NCBI GenBank assembly: GCA_030262725.1
Contig: JAJSZS010000015.1
Location: forward strand, 1 to 46,774
Source: Candidatus Desulfofervidus auxilii
GTDB taxonomy: Bacteria > Desulfobacterota > Desulfofervidia > Desulfofervidales > Desulfofervidaceae
Length of the DNA: 46,774 nucleotides
Direction of reading: 5' to 3'
Positions 5,762 to 26,826 of this stretch are shown here, piece after piece. The position numbers and the translations under genes are program-made. The first letter of the stretch is position 1; each line of letters opens with the position of its first letter. The notes under the pieces are model-generated. The model did no database searches. It saw only the letters and a program-made list of their open reading frames with translations, and had not been told where the DNA came from.

Positions 5762-6966
5762 AGACTATAGAAATAAACCATGTAATTAATTTAAAAAAAG
5801 CATTTTCTACGTTAAAAAAAAGGCAAAAAAAGATGCCTTTACCTGAATTTGAAAAAAGAAAAAGAAGGTTACTTGAATCAAGAATAAAATGTATAGGAAA
5901 TGAATCTTTATTAGAGAAAACAATAAAGAAGTTAGAGAAAAATGGAATAGAAGTATATTATGCAAAAGATAAGGAGACTGCATTAAAAATAATTTTAGAT
6001 GAGGTTAAAGGAGAAAATTTAATAGTTAAATCAAAATCAAATGTAACTAAAGAGATTGAGTTAGCTGATTTTCTTGAAAAAAATGGTGTTAAAGTCATTG
6101 AAACAGATATTGGTGATAGGGTTATGCAGATTATGGGAGAAAAACCAGCACATCCAACCTGTCCTATAGCTCACATATCTGTTAAAGAAATTTCAAAGGT
6201 ACTTTCAACTCATTTTAAAAAAGAAATCCCAGAAATACCTGAAAAAATAGTCGAAATTATTCGTGAGGAAGTTATTAATTATATTAAAAAAGCTAAAGTT
6301 GGTATTACTGGTGCAAATGCTATTACAGCAGAAGAAGGGGCAGTTATTATTGTCCATAATGAAGGTAATATCTATGAAACATTTAGAAAAGAAAAACATA
6401 TTGTTGTTACAGCTATTGATAAAGTCTATCCTAATATAGAAGAAGCAATAAATATGATTAAAATCCTTACTTATAATGCAACTGGCGCTTTTGTTCCCTC
6501 ATTTATTGAAGTCTTAAGTGGAATAAGTAAAACAGCAGATATAGAGAAAAAATTTTTTAAAGGGGTACATACTCCAAGAGAAATGATTGTTATCTTATTG
6601 GATAATAAAAGGAGTGAGATTGCAAAAAGTGAGTTTAAAAAGCTTCTTTATTGTATTGAATGTGGCAATTGTTTGATTCATTGTCCAGTTTATAATACTA
6701 TTGGAAATTCTTTTGGTTATGGAAAATATTTAGGAGGTAAAGGATTGGTTTATGCATTTTTGCAAGGAGAGATTGATGATGAAAAATTAGAATTCTGTCT
6801 TACATGTGGCCGTTGTAAGGAAAATTGCCCATTGGGAATCAATATCCCTCAAATTGTAAGAAAAATAAGAAGTAGCAATCTTTTAGAAGAGATAAGATGT
6901 ATTTTAAAATCACACTTTTTATGGGCATATTATAATTTCTTAATTTATTTAAATAAACAAAGATGA
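5758..6966 (+). CDS. LutB-like LUD-domain iron-sulfur protein
   Basis: This resembles LutB/YkgF, the iron-sulfur subunit of the LutABC L-lactate-oxidising complex. The first 290 or so residues form the LUD domain (GENLIVKSKSNVTKEI, then AKVGITGANAITAEEGAVIIVHNEGN). Two 4Fe-4S motifs follow: CIECGNCLIHCP and CLTCGRCKENCP. At 402 residues it is shorter than typical LutB, mostly because the C-terminal region after the second cluster is reduced. No lutA or lutC partner is in the window. It is locked between rfbD and rfbA by 4-base overlaps at both ends, an unusual place for this family. Its electron donor and acceptor are unknown. Confidence 0.8.
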   Translation: MKTIEINHVINLKKAFSTLKKRQKKMPLPEFEKRKRRLLESRIKCIGNESLLEKTIKKLEKNGIEVYYAKDKETALKIILDEVKGENLIVKSKSNVTKEIELADFLEKNGVKVIETDIGDRVMQIMGEKPAHPTCPIAHISVKEISKVLSTHFKKEIPEIPEKIVEIIREEVINYIKKAKVGITGANAITAEEGAVIIVHNEGNIYETFRKEKHIVVTAIDKVYPNIEEAINMIKILTYNATGAFVPSFIEVLSGISKTADIEKKFFKGVHTPREMIVILLDNKRSEIAKSEFKKLLYCIECGNCLIHCPVYNTIGNSFGYGKYLGGKGLVYAFLQGEIDDEKLEFCLTCGRCKENCPLGINIPQIVRKIRSSNLLEEIRCILKSHFLWAYYNFLIYLNKQR

Positions 6967-14376: not shown

Positions 14377-15012
14377 ATGCAAGAAGAAAGACGTGATTAT
14401 GTCAGAATAGATGATTGTCTTGCCTTTGATTATAAAATTTTAACCCCAGAAGAATACGAAAAAGAAAAAGAAATTTTTTTAAAACAACCAAGTGCTGTAG
14501 AAAAAGTAAAATTTAAGTATCCATTTTTGCCCTTAAGTTTTACTGGAGAAAGGAAAAAAGAATCTGAATTAAAGATTCAAACTACAGAACAAATGCTTTT
14601 TGGATTATTAGTTAATTTAAATGAAAAAATTGATACAATCCTTCACCTACTTGGCCATAAAGAAAAGGAAAAAACTAATTTACGTCTTAAACCACTTTCA
14701 TATGTTAATATAAGTGGAGCAGGTATGCGTTTTATAACTGAAGAAAAAATGAAGCCAGGAGATTTTTTAAAAATTGATATTTTGCTTCCTCTTTTTCCTT
14801 CTTTTATTATTACAGTATTGGCAGAGATAAAAAGAGTTAAAGAAATTTCAACAAAAGAATATGAAACAGCAGTTAGTTTTAAACATATGCATGAAGAAGA
14901 TAGAGAGGCTTTAATCTATTATATTTTTATGCGTCAGCGAAAATTAATAAGAATGTGTAAAGAAGAAAATGTTAAAGACGAACAAATCTTAATTCAGACC
15001 GATAATAAGTAA
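14377..15012 (+). CDS. PilZ domain c-di-GMP-binding protein with insertion
   Basis: PilZ proteins bind cyclic di-GMP through RxxxR and [D/N]xSxxG. Here R6-x3-R10 is at the extreme N-terminus and N111-I-S-G-A-G116 lies in the second half. In most PilZ proteins these motifs are about 30 residues apart; here roughly 100 residues separate them, including a region with NEKIDTILHLLG that looks helical. The barrel continues with FLKIDILLPLFPSFIITVLAEIKRV. It follows the HD-GYP gene by 18 bases and precedes cheX, suggesting that c-di-GMP adjusts motility or chemotaxis. Confidence 0.78.
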   Translation: MQEERRDYVRIDDCLAFDYKILTPEEYEKEKEIFLKQPSAVEKVKFKYPFLPLSFTGERKKESELKIQTTEQMLFGLLVNLNEKIDTILHLLGHKEKEKTNLRLKPLSYVNISGAGMRFITEEKMKPGDFLKIDILLPLFPSFIITVLAEIKRVKEISTKEYETAVSFKHMHEEDREALIYYIFMRQRKLIRMCKEENVKDEQILIQTDNK

Positions 15013-15027
15013 ATAGTGGAGAAGGAA

Positions 15028-15495
15028 ATGGATAAACAGTTAATTGATGCTTTTACAAAGGCAACTCAAGAAGTTTTTGCAATGATGGCTGGAATAGAGG
15101 TTGGAGAAAATAAAATTGTAAAGGATAAACAACAAAAAATATATGGTGATGTTTCAGGTGTGATTGGATTTACAGATAAATTTTCTGAAAATATAAATGG
15201 TTCTATAGTCTTAGCTCTACCTCTTAGTCTAGCAAAAAAAGCAGTGGCCAATATGTTAGCAATAGATGAATCAGAGCTTGAAGAAGAAGATATCCAGGAT
15301 GGCATAGGAGAACTTGTTAATATGATTGCGGGTGATGCTAAAAGTAAATGTAACAATGCTTTTAAAATTTCTTTACCAACAGTAATTACAGGATTGCATC
15401 ATAGTATAGGTAAAATAAAAGAAGAAATAGTGATTATTAAATTTAAAAATAATGAAGAGACATTTTATCTCCAAATTTCTTTAGAAGAAAAATAA
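15028..15495 (+). CDS. cheX: CheX-family CheY-P phosphatase
   Basis: CheX removes phosphate from CheY-P. The conserved active-site helix reads GELVNMIAGDAKS, with E95 and N98 in the same spacing and almost the same numbering as the E96/N99 pair of Thermotoga CheX. The length of 155 residues is typical. A GTG at 15016 is in frame, but GGAGAAGG directly before the ATG at 15028 makes that the better start. It lies 17 bases before cheY, its natural substrate. No CheZ is present, as is usual outside beta/gamma-proteobacteria. Confidence 0.85.
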   Translation: MDKQLIDAFTKATQEVFAMMAGIEVGENKIVKDKQQKIYGDVSGVIGFTDKFSENINGSIVLALPLSLAKKAVANMLAIDESELEEEDIQDGIGELVNMIAGDAKSKCNNAFKISLPTVITGLHHSIGKIKEEIVIIKFKNNEETFYLQISLEEK

Positions 15496-15512: not shown

Positions 15513-15881
15513 ATGAATATTCTTATTGTGGATGATTCAGCTACTATGAGAAAAATTATTTTACGTACTATAAGACAATCAGGTTATGCTGTAGATGATG
15601 TGCTTGAAGCAGGAAATGGAAAGGAGGCTTTAGAAGTTGTTAAAAATAATAAAGTTGATTTAATACTTACAGATATTAATATGCCTGAAATGGATGGTCT
15701 TGAGCTAATTGAGACATTAAGAGCTTCACCCGAAACGCAAAACATGCCTATTCTTGTTATCAGTACTGAAGGAGCTGAAGATATTGTTGAAAAAGCAAAA
15801 ACTTTAGGAGTTAAAGGATTTGTAAGAAAACCTTTTACTCCTGAAAAGATTGGAGAGGCGTTAAAACAGGCAGCAGGATAA
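15513..15881 (+). CDS. cheY: Chemotaxis response regulator CheY
   Basis: This is a stand-alone receiver domain of 122 residues. The acidic pair is in IVDDSATMRK, the phosphoacceptor is D54 in LTDINMPEMDG, the switch region is ISTEGAED and the conserved Lys is in VRKPFTPE. CheY-P binds the flagellar switch to change rotation. A good Shine-Dalgarno (AAGGAGG) precedes the ATG. It is flanked by a CheX and a CheC-like/CBS protein, so two potential phosphatases surround it. Confidence 0.92.
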   Translation: MNILIVDDSATMRKIILRTIRQSGYAVDDVLEAGNGKEALEVVKNNKVDLILTDINMPEMDGLELIETLRASPETQNMPILVISTEGAEDIVEKAKTLGVKGFVRKPFTPEKIGEALKQAAG

Positions 15882-15882
15882 G

Positions 15883-17028
15883 ATGGCAATAAAACTCACA
15901 TTATTAGCAAAGGAAATATTTAAATCTGCTAAGCTTGTTCTGAAAAATCTAATAGGGACAGATATAAGTATTTCCTATAAAGAAGGTCCTAAAGGTTTAC
16001 CTGAAATATTATCTTCAGTTTTGTGGTCCGATGCCTTTGTGACACAAATAAAAATAGATAATATTGCTGATAACGATTTTTGGTTAATAATTGAGAAAAA
16101 AGGGGCTATTTTTCTTAGTGGAAAATTGCTTGTTTTGCCTCAGAAAACATTGGAAGAAAATTTAGAAAAAGGAGAACTTAATGAATCAATGTTGGATGCT
16201 CAACGAGAAATCTGTAATATGCTTGTTGGAGCAATGGATGATGTGTTTAGAGAAAAAATAGATGGTTCACTTCATTTGAGTATGGGAGATACATTTCTTT
16301 ATAATGCAAATGCCTTTTTATCTAAACAAGAAGAATATATAACTTATATTGCTGAAGTAAAAATAGAAGACTTTGAGTTTAATATGACCATTATTATTGC
16401 ACATGATCTCACAGCTAAGATAGAAGCTTACTTGCAAGGTGAAACTTTATCTAAAGAAGAGGAAAAAATACAGCCAACAGAAGAGCAAGAGGCAGAAGAA
16501 ACACTTCCTGAGAAAAAAAGTGAGGTGATTCAGCTTACTTTACCTAAAGAAGCTAAAGAATTAACAGCAGAAACGATTGCTGAAAGAGACTTTCCGGCTA
16601 TTCATGCTGAGGCTACTTTAGCCGAAGCTTTAAAGAAAATGAATGAAAACAAATCTGACCATCTTTTTGTTGTAGATGGTTTAAAATTGTTGGGTATAAT
16701 CACGATGACAGATGTAAAAGCAGGTTTAAGCCCATTTTTAGAAGAACCTTTTAGAGAATATTGTCGTCCTCTAGATGAAGCTACTCAACAGTTTAAGGTA
16801 GCTTGGTTTATGAAAACAGAAGTACCTAGTGTTTCACCTGATGCAACTATTTTAGAAGTAACACAAGTTTTAGCAGAAAATCCGATATCTTTCCTTCCTG
16901 TATGTTATAATGGAAGAATCATTGGTTCTATTCCTCTTTCTAAATTGCTTTTAATATTAGCCAAATTAGCATTCGGTAAAGAGACTTCTGAAGAAAATGA
17001 ATTCACTGCCCAAGCAGCAGTAGCTTAA
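15883..17028 (+). CDS. CheC/CheX-like phosphatase domain fused to a CBS pair
   Basis: The first 190 or so residues look like the CheC/CheX/FliY fold, with the E-x2-N active-site pattern in REICNMLVGAMDD (E109, N112) and two flanking hydrophobic strand regions. After a Glu-rich linker (about residues 195-225) come two CBS motifs, about residues 230-365, with HLFVVDGLKLLGIITMTDV and FLPVCYNGRIIGSIPLSKL. CBS pairs usually bind adenine nucleotides or related ligands, so a nucleotide-regulated CheY-P phosphatase is a reasonable inference. The gene starts one base after the cheY stop. The fusion is unusual in my knowledge; the phosphatase activity is not proven by motif alone. Confidence 0.65.
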   Translation: MAIKLTLLAKEIFKSAKLVLKNLIGTDISISYKEGPKGLPEILSSVLWSDAFVTQIKIDNIADNDFWLIIEKKGAIFLSGKLLVLPQKTLEENLEKGELNESMLDAQREICNMLVGAMDDVFREKIDGSLHLSMGDTFLYNANAFLSKQEEYITYIAEVKIEDFEFNMTIIIAHDLTAKIEAYLQGETLSKEEEKIQPTEEQEAEETLPEKKSEVIQLTLPKEAKELTAETIAERDFPAIHAEATLAEALKKMNENKSDHLFVVDGLKLLGIITMTDVKAGLSPFLEEPFREYCRPLDEATQQFKVAWFMKTEVPSVSPDATILEVTQVLAENPISFLPVCYNGRIIGSIPLSKLLLILAKLAFGKETSEENEFTAQAAVA

Positions 17029-17087: not shown

Positions 17088-19610
17088 ATGCAAATTAATG
17101 AAATTCTCGATGAAATTACATTAAAAACCCTAAATTTGGAGAAAATAACACCTGCAGATATTTCTTTTTTAGAAGAACAAATAGAGAAATTAATTGTTAC
17201 TTTAAAAGAAGAGAATAAAGAGGCAGAAATTATCTCTTTAGCCAATGATTTGAAGACAATTTTAAAAAATGGTGATCTCAATAAATTAAATGAGAAACTT
17301 TCTATTCTTCAAAAAAGATTATTGCAAAAGAAAAAAGGAGAAAAAGATATGGAAAAGAAGAAAGTCTCAATAAATATTAATCTAGAAGAAGAGCCAGAAT
17401 TATATCGTGATTTTATAACTGAAGCCAAAGAACATTTAGATTCTATTGAAGTAAATATTGTAACTTTGGAGCAGAATCCAGAAGATAAAGAAACTGTTAA
17501 TGCTATTTTCCGCTCCTTCCATACAATAAAAGGTGTTTCTGGTTTTCTTGGTCTTAACCCTATCAATGAGCTTTCACATGCTACAGAAAATATGCTTGAT
17601 GGTGTGCGTCGGGGTGAGATTAAAATAAACAGTCATATTATTGATTTGATTTTAGAAAGTGTAGATATGCTTAAAAGTATGATAAAAGATGTTGAGGAAC
17701 AGTTAAATAGTGGTAAGCCTACAGGTAAAACATTCCCACTATCAAGATTGCTTGATAAAATTAAAAGTACTGGTGAAGATATACATATTTCAAAAGTTGA
17801 AGAAAAAACTTCTCAAAAAGGTGAAGAATTAAAAGTAAATTTTGAAGAAGATAAAGAACTTTATCAAGATTTTATCACCGAGGCAAGGGAACATCTAAGT
17901 ACTATTGAATTAAATATTATTAATCTTGAACAAAATCCAACAGATTTAGAAGTCATTAATTCTATCTTTCGTCCTTTTCATACAATAAAGGGTGTTTCTG
18001 GCTTCTTAGGATTAGAGGTTATTAATAAACTTTCACATGCAGCAGAAAATATGTTTGATGCAGCTAGAAACAGAGAATTTGTCATCAATGAAAAAGCCAT
18101 TGATGTTATTTTAGAAGCTGTAGATGTACTTAAGACCATGATTGACGATCTAGAAAAACAGATTTCTACTGGAAAACCTACTGGTAAATGCTTTCCTGTG
18201 CAAGTTTTGATTAAAAAGATAGAAGATCTAGTGGAGAAAATGAAACAAGAACCTGGTCCCAAAAGGATAGGGGAAATTTTAGTTGAAAAGGGTGTGGTAA
18301 CAGAAGAGACAATAAAGGAGGCATTAGAAAAACAAAAGACAGAAGGAGCAAAGATAGGAGAGATACTTATTAAAGAAAAGAAAGTTCCAGCTAAAGAAGT
18401 GGCGAAGGCTATCAGGGAGCAAAAAACTGTTAAAACAGCTGCAACCATTAAAGTAGATACACAAAAATTGGATAACCTTATTGATATGGTAGGTGAATTA
18501 CTCATTACCCAATCTATGATTAAACAAAATCAAGCATTGAATGAAATTCATGATCAAAAGCTTGTAAGAGATCTTTCACAGTTGGCAAGAATTACTACAG
18601 AATTGCAAAAGATAAGTATGTCTTTACGTATGGTGCCCATAAAAGAAACATTTCAAAAAATGATTCGTCTTGTGCGAGATTTGTCAAAGAAGTCAGGAAA
18701 AAAAGTACAACTTATCATGCATGGAGAAGACACAGAAATTGATAGAAACATGGTAGAAGAACTTTATGACCCTTTAGTGCATATGATAAGAAATGCAATT
18801 GATCACGGTATAGAATCACCAGAAGAAAGGAGGCAAAAAGGAAAGCCTGAAACAGGTACAATAGAACTCTTAGCATATCATAAAAGTGGTAACATTGTTA
18901 TTGAGATAAAGGATGATGGAAAGGGATTAGATAAAGAAAAAATTCTTAAAAAGGGTATAGAAAAGGGGTTAGTAATAGAGGGTGAGCAATTAAGTGAAAC
19001 AGAGATTTATCAATTAATTTTTAAACCTGGCTTTTCTACAGCCGAAAAAATTACAGATGTTTCCGGCCGTGGGGTAGGATTAGATGTAGTGAAAAAAACA
19101 CTTGAGAAATTACGCGGTAAGATAGAAATCAAAAGTGAATGGGGTAAGGGAACAACTTTTATTATCAAATTACCGCTAACTCTTGCTATCATTGATGGTA
19201 TGATTGTAAAAGTAGGTGAACACCGCTACATTCTGCCTGCTATTGCAGTGCAGGAAATATTTCGTCCTACTCGTCCTCAATACATTACTTATGCTCATAA
19301 AGTGGAGATGATTAATTTACGGGATAAGATTCTTCCTCTCGTGCGCCTTCATCGTCTATTTAATGTAAATCCAAAATATAATAATCCTTGGGAGGCATTA
19401 GTTGTAGTGGTAGAAAGTGAGGATGAAAGAAAGTGTCTAATGGTAGACGAAGTTTTAGGTAAACAAGAGGTTGTAATTAAAAGCTTAGGCGATGTCCTAG
19501 GCCGCATAAAAGGGATTGCCGGAGGAGCCATTATGGGGGATGGAAGAGTGGGGTTAATTTTGGATGTAAGTGGTATATTTGAACTGAGCAAAACAGCTTC
19601 TTTATCTTAG
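17088..19610 (+). CDS. cheA: Chemotaxis histidine kinase CheA with two Hpt domains
   Basis: CheA autophosphorylates and passes phosphate to CheY and CheB. Order of parts: an 87-residue charged helical N-terminus; Hpt1 about 100-205 with H145 in FHTIKG; Hpt2 about 250-360 with H298 in FHTIKG; a region about 392-446 like the N-terminal domain of GspE/MshE ATPases (IGEILVEKGVVTEETIKEAL); dimerisation helices; an HATPase domain with HMIRNAIDHGIE, DDGKGL and GRGVGLD; and a C-terminal CheW-like domain. The first ATG (17088) has no clear Shine-Dalgarno, while the in-frame ATG at 17349 has AAGGAG eight bases upstream, so a shorter 753-residue form is plausible. The 3' end overlaps the opposing repressor gene by 9 bases. 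Confidence 0.9.
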   Translation: MQINEILDEITLKTLNLEKITPADISFLEEQIEKLIVTLKEENKEAEIISLANDLKTILKNGDLNKLNEKLSILQKRLLQKKKGEKDMEKKKVSININLEEEPELYRDFITEAKEHLDSIEVNIVTLEQNPEDKETVNAIFRSFHTIKGVSGFLGLNPINELSHATENMLDGVRRGEIKINSHIIDLILESVDMLKSMIKDVEEQLNSGKPTGKTFPLSRLLDKIKSTGEDIHISKVEEKTSQKGEELKVNFEEDKELYQDFITEAREHLSTIELNIINLEQNPTDLEVINSIFRPFHTIKGVSGFLGLEVINKLSHAAENMFDAARNREFVINEKAIDVILEAVDVLKTMIDDLEKQISTGKPTGKCFPVQVLIKKIEDLVEKMKQEPGPKRIGEILVEKGVVTEETIKEALEKQKTEGAKIGEILIKEKKVPAKEVAKAIREQKTVKTAATIKVDTQKLDNLIDMVGELLITQSMIKQNQALNEIHDQKLVRDLSQLARITTELQKISMSLRMVPIKETFQKMIRLVRDLSKKSGKKVQLIMHGEDTEIDRNMVEELYDPLVHMIRNAIDHGIESPEERRQKGKPETGTIELLAYHKSGNIVIEIKDDGKGLDKEKILKKGIEKGLVIEGEQLSETEIYQLIFKPGFSTAEKITDVSGRGVGLDVVKKTLEKLRGKIEIKSEWGKGTTFIIKLPLTLAIIDGMIVKVGEHRYILPAIAVQEIFRPTRPQYITYAHKVEMINLRDKILPLVRLHRLFNVNPKYNNPWEALVVVVESEDERKCLMVDEVLGKQEVVIKSLGDVLGRIKGIAGGAIMGDGRVGLILDVSGIFELSKTASLS
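17335..17351 (+). promoter_or_regulatory. Internal ribosome binding site and alternative cheA start
   Basis: AAGGAG at 17335-17340 lies eight bases before an in-frame ATG at 17349-17351. Translation from here would remove the first 87 residues but keep both Hpt domains. The upstream ATG at 17088 lacks a comparable site. Confidence 0.5.
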
Positions 19611-20300
19611 TTTATGCCAAGTCCAGACAACACGACCGAGAACATAATATTGTATAGTCTTTCCTGCTTGAATTTTTATAGTAAATGGCTTATAAGCTTT
19701 ATTATCGCTAACACAAAATAGTGTATCTGATTCTTTTAATAAAACTCTTTTGACTGAAATACTACCGTCTTCTCTACGTACAATATAAATACCATCATCT
19801 ATAATTTCAATTCGGCATTCAAGATTAGTATCGACAATCATAAATTCACCATTATTTATAGTAGGTGACATAGAATCTCCACGGCACCGGAGGATGACAA
19901 AACGTTTTAATTTTTCTTCATTACAACCATATTCTTTACATAGCCAGATGCGTTTAAAAGGGCAATAATCAATAATTTTTTCTGAAGGCCAGATGTCCGC
20001 AACATCAGCAGCAATTTCTGTGTCTAAAAGTGGAATCATAACATATTCTTCTGAAAAGTATTGTGTTTGTGATTGTGTTTTAGGTGTTTCAAAAGGTATT
20101 CCTTCTCCCATAAGAAGCCAATTTGGGTTAACATTTAATTGTGTAATTATTTTATGTAAAGTGTCCGCTCGTGGACTTCGGTTACCATTCATATACAAAG
20201 ATAGAGTATGCTTGTGTATACCAAGAAGTTTAGCAAACTTATCCTGTGTAAGTCCCGATTGTTTGTAAAGAAATTTAATCCGATCCGCTAATGTTTTCAT
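19602..20300 (-). CDS. XRE-type HTH repressor with S24 peptidase-like domain
   Basis: The N-terminal 65 residues are an XRE/Cro-CI helix-turn-helix (LTQDKFAKLLGIHKHTLSLYMNG), followed by the phage-repressor motif NPNWLLMGEG. The C-terminal half is an S24/LexA-like domain with Ser143 in GDSMSPT and Lys184 in SVKRV, the catalytic dyad positions. I see no Ala-Gly or Cys-Gly cleavage pair in the linker, so self-cleavage is doubtful and it is not LexA. It sits antisense between cheA and cheW, its end overlapping cheA by 9 bases. Inverted repeats just upstream suggest autoregulation. Origin from a phage-type regulator is likely. Confidence 0.85.
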   Translation of the reverse strand: MKTLADRIKFLYKQSGLTQDKFAKLLGIHKHTLSLYMNGNRSPRADTLHKIITQLNVNPNWLLMGEGIPFETPKTQSQTQYFSEEYVMIPLLDTEIAADVADIWPSEKIIDYCPFKRIWLCKEYGCNEEKLKRFVILRCRGDSMSPTINNGEFMIVDTNLECRIEIIDDGIYIVRREDGSISVKRVLLKESDTLFCVSDNKAYKPFTIKIQAGKTIQYYVLGRVVWTWHKLR

Positions 20301-22838: not shown

Positions 22839-23657
22839 ATGGTAATGTTTAACATACCATTGCTTTCTGACAGGGAATTTAAAGTTATAAGGAAACTTGT
22901 TTATGAAAAAAGTGGAATTGCTTTAGGTGATGAGAAGAAAAGTTTGGTGCAAAGTCGTTTAGGAAAATTACTTAGAAAACGTGGAATTAATTCTTTTAAA
23001 CAATATCTTCAAAAAGTGATCAATGATTCTACAGGAGAAGAACTGACAGAGCTTATAAATGCTATCTCTACAAATTTTACACATTTTTTTAGAGAAAAAG
23101 AACATTTTGAATTTTTGAAAAATATAATTATACCTGCATGTAACCATAAGAAGATAATAAAAATCTGGTCAGCAGGATGTTCTTCAGGTGAGGAACCATA
23201 TTCTATTGCTATCACTCTATTTGAAGCAATTAAGGACATAAAAAGATGGCAAGTAAAGATATTAGCTACAGATATATCTACTCAAGTGCTTAAAAAGGCT
23301 ATAGATGGGATTTATAAAAAAGAACAGTTGGTGACTTTATCCAAAACATTATTATTTAAATATTTTGAAAAACGGCAAGGCTATTACCAAATAAGACCGG
23401 AAATAAAGGGGTTAATCAAATTTAAAAAACTAAATCTACTTGATCCCTTTCCATTTAATACCCAGTTTAATGTGATTTTTTGCCGAAATGTTATGATTTA
23501 TTTTGATAAGCAAACTAAGGAACAACTTGTTAATCGTCTTTATGATTATGTAATGCCTGGTGGATATTTATTTGTAGGTCATGCAGAGGGTTTAATGGGT
23601 TTAAAGCATAAATTTAGATATGTAAAGCCAGCGATTTATCAAAAAATAGACAGATGA
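22839..23657 (+). CDS. cheR: Chemotaxis protein methyltransferase CheR
   Basis: CheR methylates receptor glutamates using S-adenosylmethionine. The N-terminal helical domain (about residues 1-80) is followed by the family sequence INAISTNFTHFFREKEHFEFL, then the SAM site IWSAGCSSGEEPYSIAI, the acidic LATDIS segment and FCRNVMIYFD. The C-terminus has GYLFVGHAEGLMGL. The 272-residue length is typical. No clear Shine-Dalgarno precedes the ATG; an ATG two codons later is an alternative. cheD follows with a 4-base overlap. Confidence 0.93.
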   Translation: MVMFNIPLLSDREFKVIRKLVYEKSGIALGDEKKSLVQSRLGKLLRKRGINSFKQYLQKVINDSTGEELTELINAISTNFTHFFREKEHFEFLKNIIIPACNHKKIIKIWSAGCSSGEEPYSIAITLFEAIKDIKRWQVKILATDISTQVLKKAIDGIYKKEQLVTLSKTLLFKYFEKRQGYYQIRPEIKGLIKFKKLNLLDPFPFNTQFNVIFCRNVMIYFDKQTKEQLVNRLYDYVMPGGYLFVGHAEGLMGLKHKFRYVKPAIYQKIDR

Positions 23658-24139
23658 AAAAAAGGATGGTGGTGGGGATTGCAGATATGAAGGTGAGTAA
23701 TGACTCAGACGTCATTCTAGTTACACATGCTTTAGGTTCTTGTATTGGTTTAGCTGTATATGACCCTGTAGTAAAAGTTGGGGGGCTGTTGCATTATATG
23801 CTTCCAGAATCAAGAATTAATCCTAAAAAAGCTAAGGAAAATCCTTTTATGTTTGCTGACACAGGTATTCCTTTGCTTTTTAAAACTTGTTATCGATATG
23901 GTGCGATAAAACAAAGAATGATTGTTAAAGTAGCTGGTGGTGCCCAAATTATGGATGAGAAAGGACAATTTAACATTGGACAAAGAAATTATGCGGCTTT
24001 AAGGAAAATCTTTTGGAAAAATGGGGTGCTGATTCAAGCAGAAGATGTTGGCGGTTTTGTCAATCGCACTATGGAATTAGATATAGAGACAGGTGAAGTT
24101 CGTTTAAAATTGCCTGGACAAAATATAAAAAAACTATGA
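23654..24139 (+). CDS. cheD: Chemoreceptor glutamine deamidase CheD
   Basis: CheD deamidates receptor glutamines and can pair with CheC. Catalytic residues match the Thermotoga enzyme with an offset of three: T24, C30 in THALGSCIGLAVYDP, and H47 in GGLLHYMLPES. The stretch RMIVKVAGGAQIM and NIGQRNYAALRKIF are also typical. The length of 161 residues is normal. The gene overlaps cheR and the following HDOD gene by 4 bases each (ATGA), so translation is coupled. Confidence 0.93.
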   Translation: MKKRMVVGIADMKVSNDSDVILVTHALGSCIGLAVYDPVVKVGGLLHYMLPESRINPKKAKENPFMFADTGIPLLFKTCYRYGAIKQRMIVKVAGGAQIMDEKGQFNIGQRNYAALRKIFWKNGVLIQAEDVGGFVNRTMELDIETGEVRLKLPGQNIKKL

Positions 24140-24990
24140 AAAAGATAGAAAAAATTTTAGATAATATAAAAAGGCTACCTCCTTTTCCCTTAGTTGCCCT
24201 TAAGATTATGCACATAGCAATGGATGAAGAAGTTTCTGTGCAAGAAATCGTTGAGATTATTCAATATGATCCATCAATTACTGCTAATGTATTGAGATGG
24301 TGTAATTCTCCTTATTTTGGTCTTAGACGTAAAATAACATCTATGAAAGAAGCACTTGTTTATCTTGGAAGTAAACATTTGTTAGAAATTGTGATGTTAA
24401 GTAGTTGTGCCCCTTATCTGGAAAAATCAGTGGCAGGTTATGAATTGGCACAAGGAGAGTTGTGGCGACATAGTGTAGCCTGTGCCATTATGAGCCAAAT
24501 TTTAGCTAAAAAAATAAAGGAAGATGATGCTGTTGTTTTTACAGGAGGATTGTTACATGACATTGGCAAAATTGTTTTAAGTGAATTTGTGAAAGACACA
24601 TTTGATAAAATCATACAATTAGTTAAAAAAGGTTATGATTTTTTGTCAGCTGAAAAAGAAATAATTGGTATGGATCATGCTGAATTAGGGGGAAGAATTG
24701 GAGAAAAATGGGGTTTCCCAGAAGAAATTACTAAAATAATTACCTATCATCATCAACCAGAAGAAATAAATGATGTTCATGTATCTTTAGTCCATTTAGC
24801 AGATGTAGGAGTATTAATGTTAGGTATAGGGGCAGGTGCGGATGGATTGGCTTATCAGGGTAAAAAGGAGGCATATGAACTTTTGGGATTGAGAGAAACA
24901 GACCTTATGGCTTGTATGGCAGAGCTTTGGGTAAATTTAGAAAAGGTAGAAAATATTGTGAATTTTAAGGGAAAAAACCATGGGATTTAA
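24136..24990 (+). CDS. HDOD domain signalling protein
   Basis: The whole 284-residue protein is an HDOD domain: LPPFPLVALKIMHIA at the start, IIQYDPSITANVLRWCNSPYFG, and a retained HD-like LLHDIGKIVLSEF with later MDHAELGG and TYHHQPEE. HDOD proteins are usually non-catalytic output or scaffold modules in motility and c-di-GMP signalling. More histidines are conserved here than in many HDOD proteins, so residual metal binding is possible. It overlaps cheD by 4 bases and the next receiver gene by 11 bases. Confidence 0.85.
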   Translation: MKKIEKILDNIKRLPPFPLVALKIMHIAMDEEVSVQEIVEIIQYDPSITANVLRWCNSPYFGLRRKITSMKEALVYLGSKHLLEIVMLSSCAPYLEKSVAGYELAQGELWRHSVACAIMSQILAKKIKEDDAVVFTGGLLHDIGKIVLSEFVKDTFDKIIQLVKKGYDFLSAEKEIIGMDHAELGGRIGEKWGFPEEITKIITYHHQPEEINDVHVSLVHLADVGVLMLGIGAGADGLAYQGKKEAYELLGLRETDLMACMAELWVNLEKVENIVNFKGKNHGI

Positions 24991-25358
24991 TGTTTTAATT
25001 GTGGATGATTCTGCAGCTATAAGAAAAATCATTAAAAAAACTATTTTAATCTCTGGCTTTGATGTAGAAAATTTTTATGAAGCAGGAAATGGTAAAGAAG
25101 CACTTAATATACTTAAAGATAATTGGGTAGATGTAGTGGTAACAGATATCCATATGCCAGAGATGAGTGGGATAACTTTATTAAAAAAAATAAGAGAAGA
25201 TGACGTACTTAGTAGTTTACCGGTTATTGTAATTTCTACAGAGGGAAGAGAGCAAAAAGTGAAGGAGGCATTAAATCTTGGGGCAAATGGATATATTAAA
25301 AAACCATTTAAACCAGAAGATATAAAAGACATTTTATTAAAAGTTATGGGGGAAGAAT

Positions 25359-26826
<1,468 letters not shown>

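Follow-up and report, generated by a model that had tools for sequence, protein, structure and literature searches.

A CheC/FliY-type domain joined to a CBS pair in a chemotaxis cluster of Candidatus Desulfofervidus auxilii, a candidate ligand-tuned CheY-P phosphatase

The window analyzed here, a stretch of 46,774 nucleotides from Candidatus Desulfofervidus auxilii, contains a chemotaxis gene cluster in which a gene encoding a CheC-like domain fused to a CBS pair lies between cheY and cheA. The ATG of the fusion gene begins one base past the cheY stop codon. The genes of the cluster and the parts of the fusion are as follows:

14377-15012, + strand: PilZ-domain gene (Pfam), just 5' of cheX
15016..15495, + strand: cheX, ordinary single-domain CheX (PF13690, 73.5 bits)
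15513..15881, + strand: cheY, response regulator with D54 intact (PF00072, 1e-30)
15883..17028, + strand: CheC-CBS fusion gene, ATG start, 381 aa (Pfam and predicted structure)
15883..16434, + strand: predicted N-terminal CheC/FliY/FliM-type domain, residues 1-184 (VIA-align; hhalign to CheX)
16204..16233, + strand: E-x-x-N helix segment REICNMLVGA, residues 108-117, with E109 and N112 (sequence, alignments)
16441..16545, + strand: Glu-rich linker, residues 187-221, predicted disordered (sequence, pLDDT)
16576..16719, + strand: CBS1, about residues 232-279, T274-x-x-D277 retained (PF00571; D277 in 5/5 fusions)
16720..16812, + strand: CBS1-CBS2 connector SPFLEEPFREYCRPxDEAT...WF, about residues 280-310 (conserved in the five-fusion alignment)
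16813..16992, + strand: CBS2, about residues 311-370, with K354 at the Asp position (PF00571, alignment; K/R in 5/5)
17088..19610, + strand: cheA, immediately downstream of the fusion (Hpt x2, H-kinase_dim, HATPase_c, CheW)
19602-20300, - strand: antisense gene between cheA and cheW, by eye a phage-type/LexA-like repressor (HTH and peptidase)
23654-24139: cheD-like gene of the same cluster, named by eye from the sequence
24980-25405, + strand: second cheY
25359-25781, + strand: second, diverged CheX (40.2 bits)

Besides the fusion, the source genome carries two ordinary CheX. A preliminary description of this DNA had recognized a CheC/CheX-like domain joined to a CBS pair, and this observation is confirmed: the E-x2-N helix, the acidic linker and both CBS motifs were all found, and the numbering of E109 and N112 given there is correct. 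The linker contains 11 Glu and 4 Lys in its 35 residues and differs in length among the five fusions aligned. In an AlphaFold2 model built from five sequences only, with a pTM of 0.48 and the mutual placement of the two domains not fixed, pLDDT is mostly 80-90 in both domains, below 50 in the linker and low at residues 281-295, inside the CBS1-CBS2 connector.

The C-terminal half is clearly a CBS pair (Bateman module), matched by PF00571 in two stretches (73.9 bits, E 1.3e-20, cut-off 24). Its best sequence-profile match is MJ1225 (E 1.4e-15), and among the 50 VIA-align matches listed the nearest CBS folds are AcuB structures with AMP, ADP, ATP or Ap4A (9s4v-9s52; Z about 18, 27-30% identity); AcuB shares the CBS-pair fold but lacks the fusion to a chemotaxis domain. 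CBS pairs are modules that usually sense adenine-type molecules, and T/S-x-x-D is presumably the ribose-binding motif of those that bind adenosyl ligands. In CBS1 this motif is kept, with D277 present in all five fusions, and in CBS2 the Asp position is K or R in every one of them, which argues for a single canonical, putative adenosyl site.

The N-terminal half has diverged too far to be recognized by Pfam. As a single sequence it matches CheX weakly (PF13690, 17.9 bits, E 0.0032, residues 95-127, under the cut-off of 27), and the CheC family PF04509 has no match in the fusion up to E 1 and none in the genome, so that of the two families expected in the preliminary description CBS was found and CheC was not. 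An alignment of 20 N-domain rows, five CBS-type and 15 from 11 receiver-type proteins, with identities down to 13-24%, was compared with other families by profile. Against an alignment of ten CheX sequences hhalign gave a probability of 94.9% (E 4.4e-8) with the E-x-x-N helices in register, versus 0.3% and 0.2% for control alignments of CBS and CheY; with this family alignment, the predicted CheX-type assignment is well above chance. The same profile run against the PDB retrieved FliY (8.4e-4), two CheX-type chains (0.05) and two CheC chains (0.5), superfamily chains making up five of the six matches and the sixth being the unrelated SEC15 (0.05).

The predicted structure agrees with this assignment. 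Among the 50 VIA-align matches listed, the N-domain model superimposes on a FliM middle domain (Z 20.4, 174 aligned residues, 2.3 Å) and on FliY (4hyn; Z 18.7, 185 aligned, 4.0 Å, 18% identity), the FliM and FliY superpositions spanning residues 1 to 183-191; CheC and CheX chains were not among these best 50. With Foldseek, the CheC-like 3qta was matched at E 7e-9. The N-domain modelled alone, with no alignment, reached a pLDDT of only 42.5 and this model was not used. Based on alignments and predicted structure, the N-domain is assigned to the CheC/CheX/FliY/FliM superfamily, and the structural likeness to CheC/CheX on which the preliminary description depended was recovered as a CheC/FliY/FliM fold of the predicted model. 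Two more specific identities were rejected. The only PF02154 (FliM) match of the genome sits on another contig (C7) and the fusion itself has no FliM match; since FliM is encoded elsewhere, the fusion cannot be taken for the switch protein. A FliY was discarded because the FliN domain (FliMN_C, PF01052) is absent and Pfam finds CBS only; L098, an example FliY of the phylum, matches PF01052 at 3.9e-17.

Only three columns are invariant among the 20 rows, P86, D105 and E109. N112 is present in 18 rows, and both exceptions belong to one protein, L010, which has lost the Asn in its two domains and kept its architecture. Conservation of the Glu/Asn pair, assumed in the preliminary description, was thus borne out (Glu in 20/20 rows, Asn in 18/20), and both residues are kept in 5/5 CBS fusions. 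A chance motif was rejected on the invariance of E109 and the hhalign controls. In the profile alignment to FliY the fusion motif coincides with the second E-x-x-N site, and the first helix, which pairs with the GEIGN helix of FliY, has no E-x-x-N in any of the five fusions.

A survey of other genomes, as proposed earlier, yielded five distinct CheC-CBS fusions, four in genomes of the order of the window and one in a more distant MAG. Among 297 genomes of the phylum searched with the N-domain, 17 matched (the window's own, three close and 13 distant), and the three close genomes carry a CBS fusion with 50-54% identity to that of the window. Two scans of 84,980 species, keyed on two short conserved peptides and therefore liable to miss diverged fusions, also outside the phylum, gave no relative with the single sequence and four fusions with a four-row alignment. 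Three of these (L023, L024, and L025) were counted as genomes G074, which belongs to the same family as the window's genome, G136 and G107, already found in the phylum search; the fourth, L026, has 40% identity to the window's fusion. With the full-length fusion as query, matches were obtained in 4/6 genomes of the order (the other two being weak, CBS-only matches), in 1/85 of the class of G297 (20 further genomes matching in the CBS part only) and in 4/394 of a phylum draw around G297. Within that draw the G656 match is CBS only, a stand-alone CBS protein (L118), and G551, G583, and G636 look like G074, G107, and G136 again (same position and frame length), so the total stays at five. No plasmid-borne copies were found by tblastn.

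The gene order cheX, cheY, fusion is present in 5/5 CBS fusions. All six genomes of the order encode FliM and a CheA; in the four with the fusion a CheA reaches about 1e-15 or better against H-kinase_dim, and in the two without it the sole CheA is weaker (6e-9 in G038 and 5e-11 in G163, a genome 81% complete). As the strong CheA class occurs in 4/4 genomes with the fusion and 0/2 without, the presence of the fusion tracks a single type of chemotaxis cluster.

Of 395 genomes drawn from the phylum, 27 have the N-domain at E 1e-6 or better, and by their C-terminus 22 of the proteins are receiver-like (L005-L017, L081, L085, L087, L090, L093-L097), four carry a CBS pair and one a FliN domain (the FliY L098). 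The receiver model was derived from six of the 22, which match by construction, and the Pfam receiver score is sub-threshold in those tested (e.g. 29.0 bits in L014 and 24.7 in L012 vs 30.2). The column of the CheY phospho-acceptor D54 holds G, S, V or I in 22/22 receiver-like proteins; two CheC-like domains are present in 12/22, and cheX or cheY adjoins 20/22 of the genes within 1.9-3.6 kb, with none in sight at L010 and L096. These proteins share the N-domain family with the fusion and differ from it in a C-terminus that is receiver-like, lacking the phospho-acceptor Asp, rather than CBS. As the same N-domain is joined to either C-terminus, the C-terminal module has been exchanged; judged from the sequences, neither form looks phosphorylatable.

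Among known systems, FliY of Thermotoga maritima (4hyn), composed of a CheC-like part and FliN, shares a CheC/FliM-type fold with the whole predicted N-domain; the fusion, however, lacks the first E-x-x-N site, has a CBS pair in the place of FliN, and nothing extends N-terminally before its first helix. Like CheX (PF13690), it has a single E-x-x-N site per chain, on one long helix, although it scores under the PF13690 cut-off. CheC has one E-x-x-N per half, whereas the fusion has one in the second half only and no PF04509 match. The preliminary description had regarded a link of this kind as absent from described systems. This holds in part: no paper on a CheC/CheX-CBS fusion was found in the open-access literature searched, but PMC5013675 already names both CheX and CheA as partners of MshEN, a domain that binds c-di-GMP, likewise a small-molecule module on a chemotaxis phosphatase or kinase, with MshEN there and a CBS pair here. 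Because MshEN-CheX is in print (PMC5013675), a sensor-fused chemotaxis phosphatase is not new in kind.

Altogether, we favor a one-site CheC/FliY-type CheY-P phosphatase, or CheY-P binder, that an adenosyl ligand tunes through the CBS pair; we give this reading a probability of about one half. In the mechanism that we infer for CheY-P hydrolysis, ligand binding and domain coupling, E109 and N112 would contact phosphorylated CheY made by the neighboring CheA and position the hydrolytic water, as their counterparts do in CheC, CheX, and FliY. Tethered to the phosphatase-like domain by the flexible acidic linker, the CBS pair would use the Asp of CBS1 to bind an adenosyl ligand, AMP, ADP or ATP being the likeliest, and the ligand-occupied and empty states would differ in dimer geometry or active-site access. 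The lifetime of CheY-P would then follow the nucleotide state of the cell, the fusion acting as a conditional second phosphatase next to the ordinary CheX.

Several points weigh against this reading: the protein scores under the CheX and CheC cut-offs of Pfam, CBS2 has no Asp in any of the five fusions, the model draws on five sequences only and does not fix how the two domains are arranged, and FliM, the strongest fold match among those listed, shares the CheC-type fold and is not known to be a phosphatase. A non-catalytic CheY-P scaffold or sink, in which the CBS pair merely dimerizes, would accord with FliM middle domains being the closest folds among the 50 listed by VIA-align, with L010, whose architecture is unchanged after loss of the Asn in both domains, and with the missing Asp of CBS2; retention of E-x-x-N in 18/20 rows, among relatives down to 13-24% identity, and of D277 in all five fusions makes this unlikely, if still the strongest of the competing explanations. 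Somewhat less probable is a CheY-P phosphatase that answers to another adenosyl ligand, either SAM, reporting CheR methylation capacity, or c-di-AMP. CBS folds do not reveal ligand identity, and the CBS model does match MJ0100 with SAM (3kpc, Z 16.4) and DarB with c-di-AMP (8ad6, Z 17.1); the nearest fold and profile matches, however, are AcuB and MJ1225, both binders of AMP, ADP and ATP.

In Bacillus subtilis, CheC acts with CheD in receptor deamidation, CheY-P serving as the signal. A corresponding role for the fusion, as a CheC-like adaptation partner that binds CheD and regulates receptor deamidation, draws on the cheD-like gene recognized by eye in the same cluster; set against the lack of a PF04509 match and the single E-x-x-N site, it seems improbable.

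A wider and more tentative proposal, to which we lean less than to the favored reading, is that the protein may connect the energy or methyl-donor state to the flagellar signal by a shortcut inside the cell: the ligand-bound CBS pair would set the CheY-P lifetime directly, with receptors bypassed, in a family that has exchanged its C-terminal sensor module between pseudo-receiver and CBS pair. Energy taxis is usually explained via receptors and CheA; if true, a metabolite sensor of its own on a CheY-P phosphatase would let the input enter at the last stage of the pathway, and the internal state of the cell may adjust how it swims. That CheC-like domains are paired with either a CBS pair or a receiver that cannot be phosphorylated suggests that removal of CheY-P under the control of a ligand or partner may be a general theme in the phylum.

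Other features of the cluster deserve mention. Besides its two Hpt domains, the product of cheA (17088-19610) has at residues 393-445 a domain of the MshEN type, which binds c-di-GMP (NF053729, 57 bits). The CheA at 9180-11891 of L023 likewise has an MshEN-type domain (NF053729, 48 bits) and two Hpt domains, and L023 also carries a PilZ-domain gene (6117-6722). The PilZ gene together with the MshEN-containing CheA suggests c-di-GMP input to the chemotaxis cluster. No tRNA was found within the window, and its promoter scan gave 24 matches, below the shuffle mean of 33; a 12/12 sigma-70 match at 20357-20330 would serve the antisense repressor-like gene at 19602-20300. The terminator scan gave 6 matches vs 3.4 in shuffles. 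The reading frames of the second cheY and the second CheX share 47 bases. The CheX upstream of the fusion in L023 (6780-7568) is extended at its N-terminus by about 110 residues of no recognized kind, and the CheX frames are also longer in L024 and L025, whereas the CheX of the window has no N-terminal extension.
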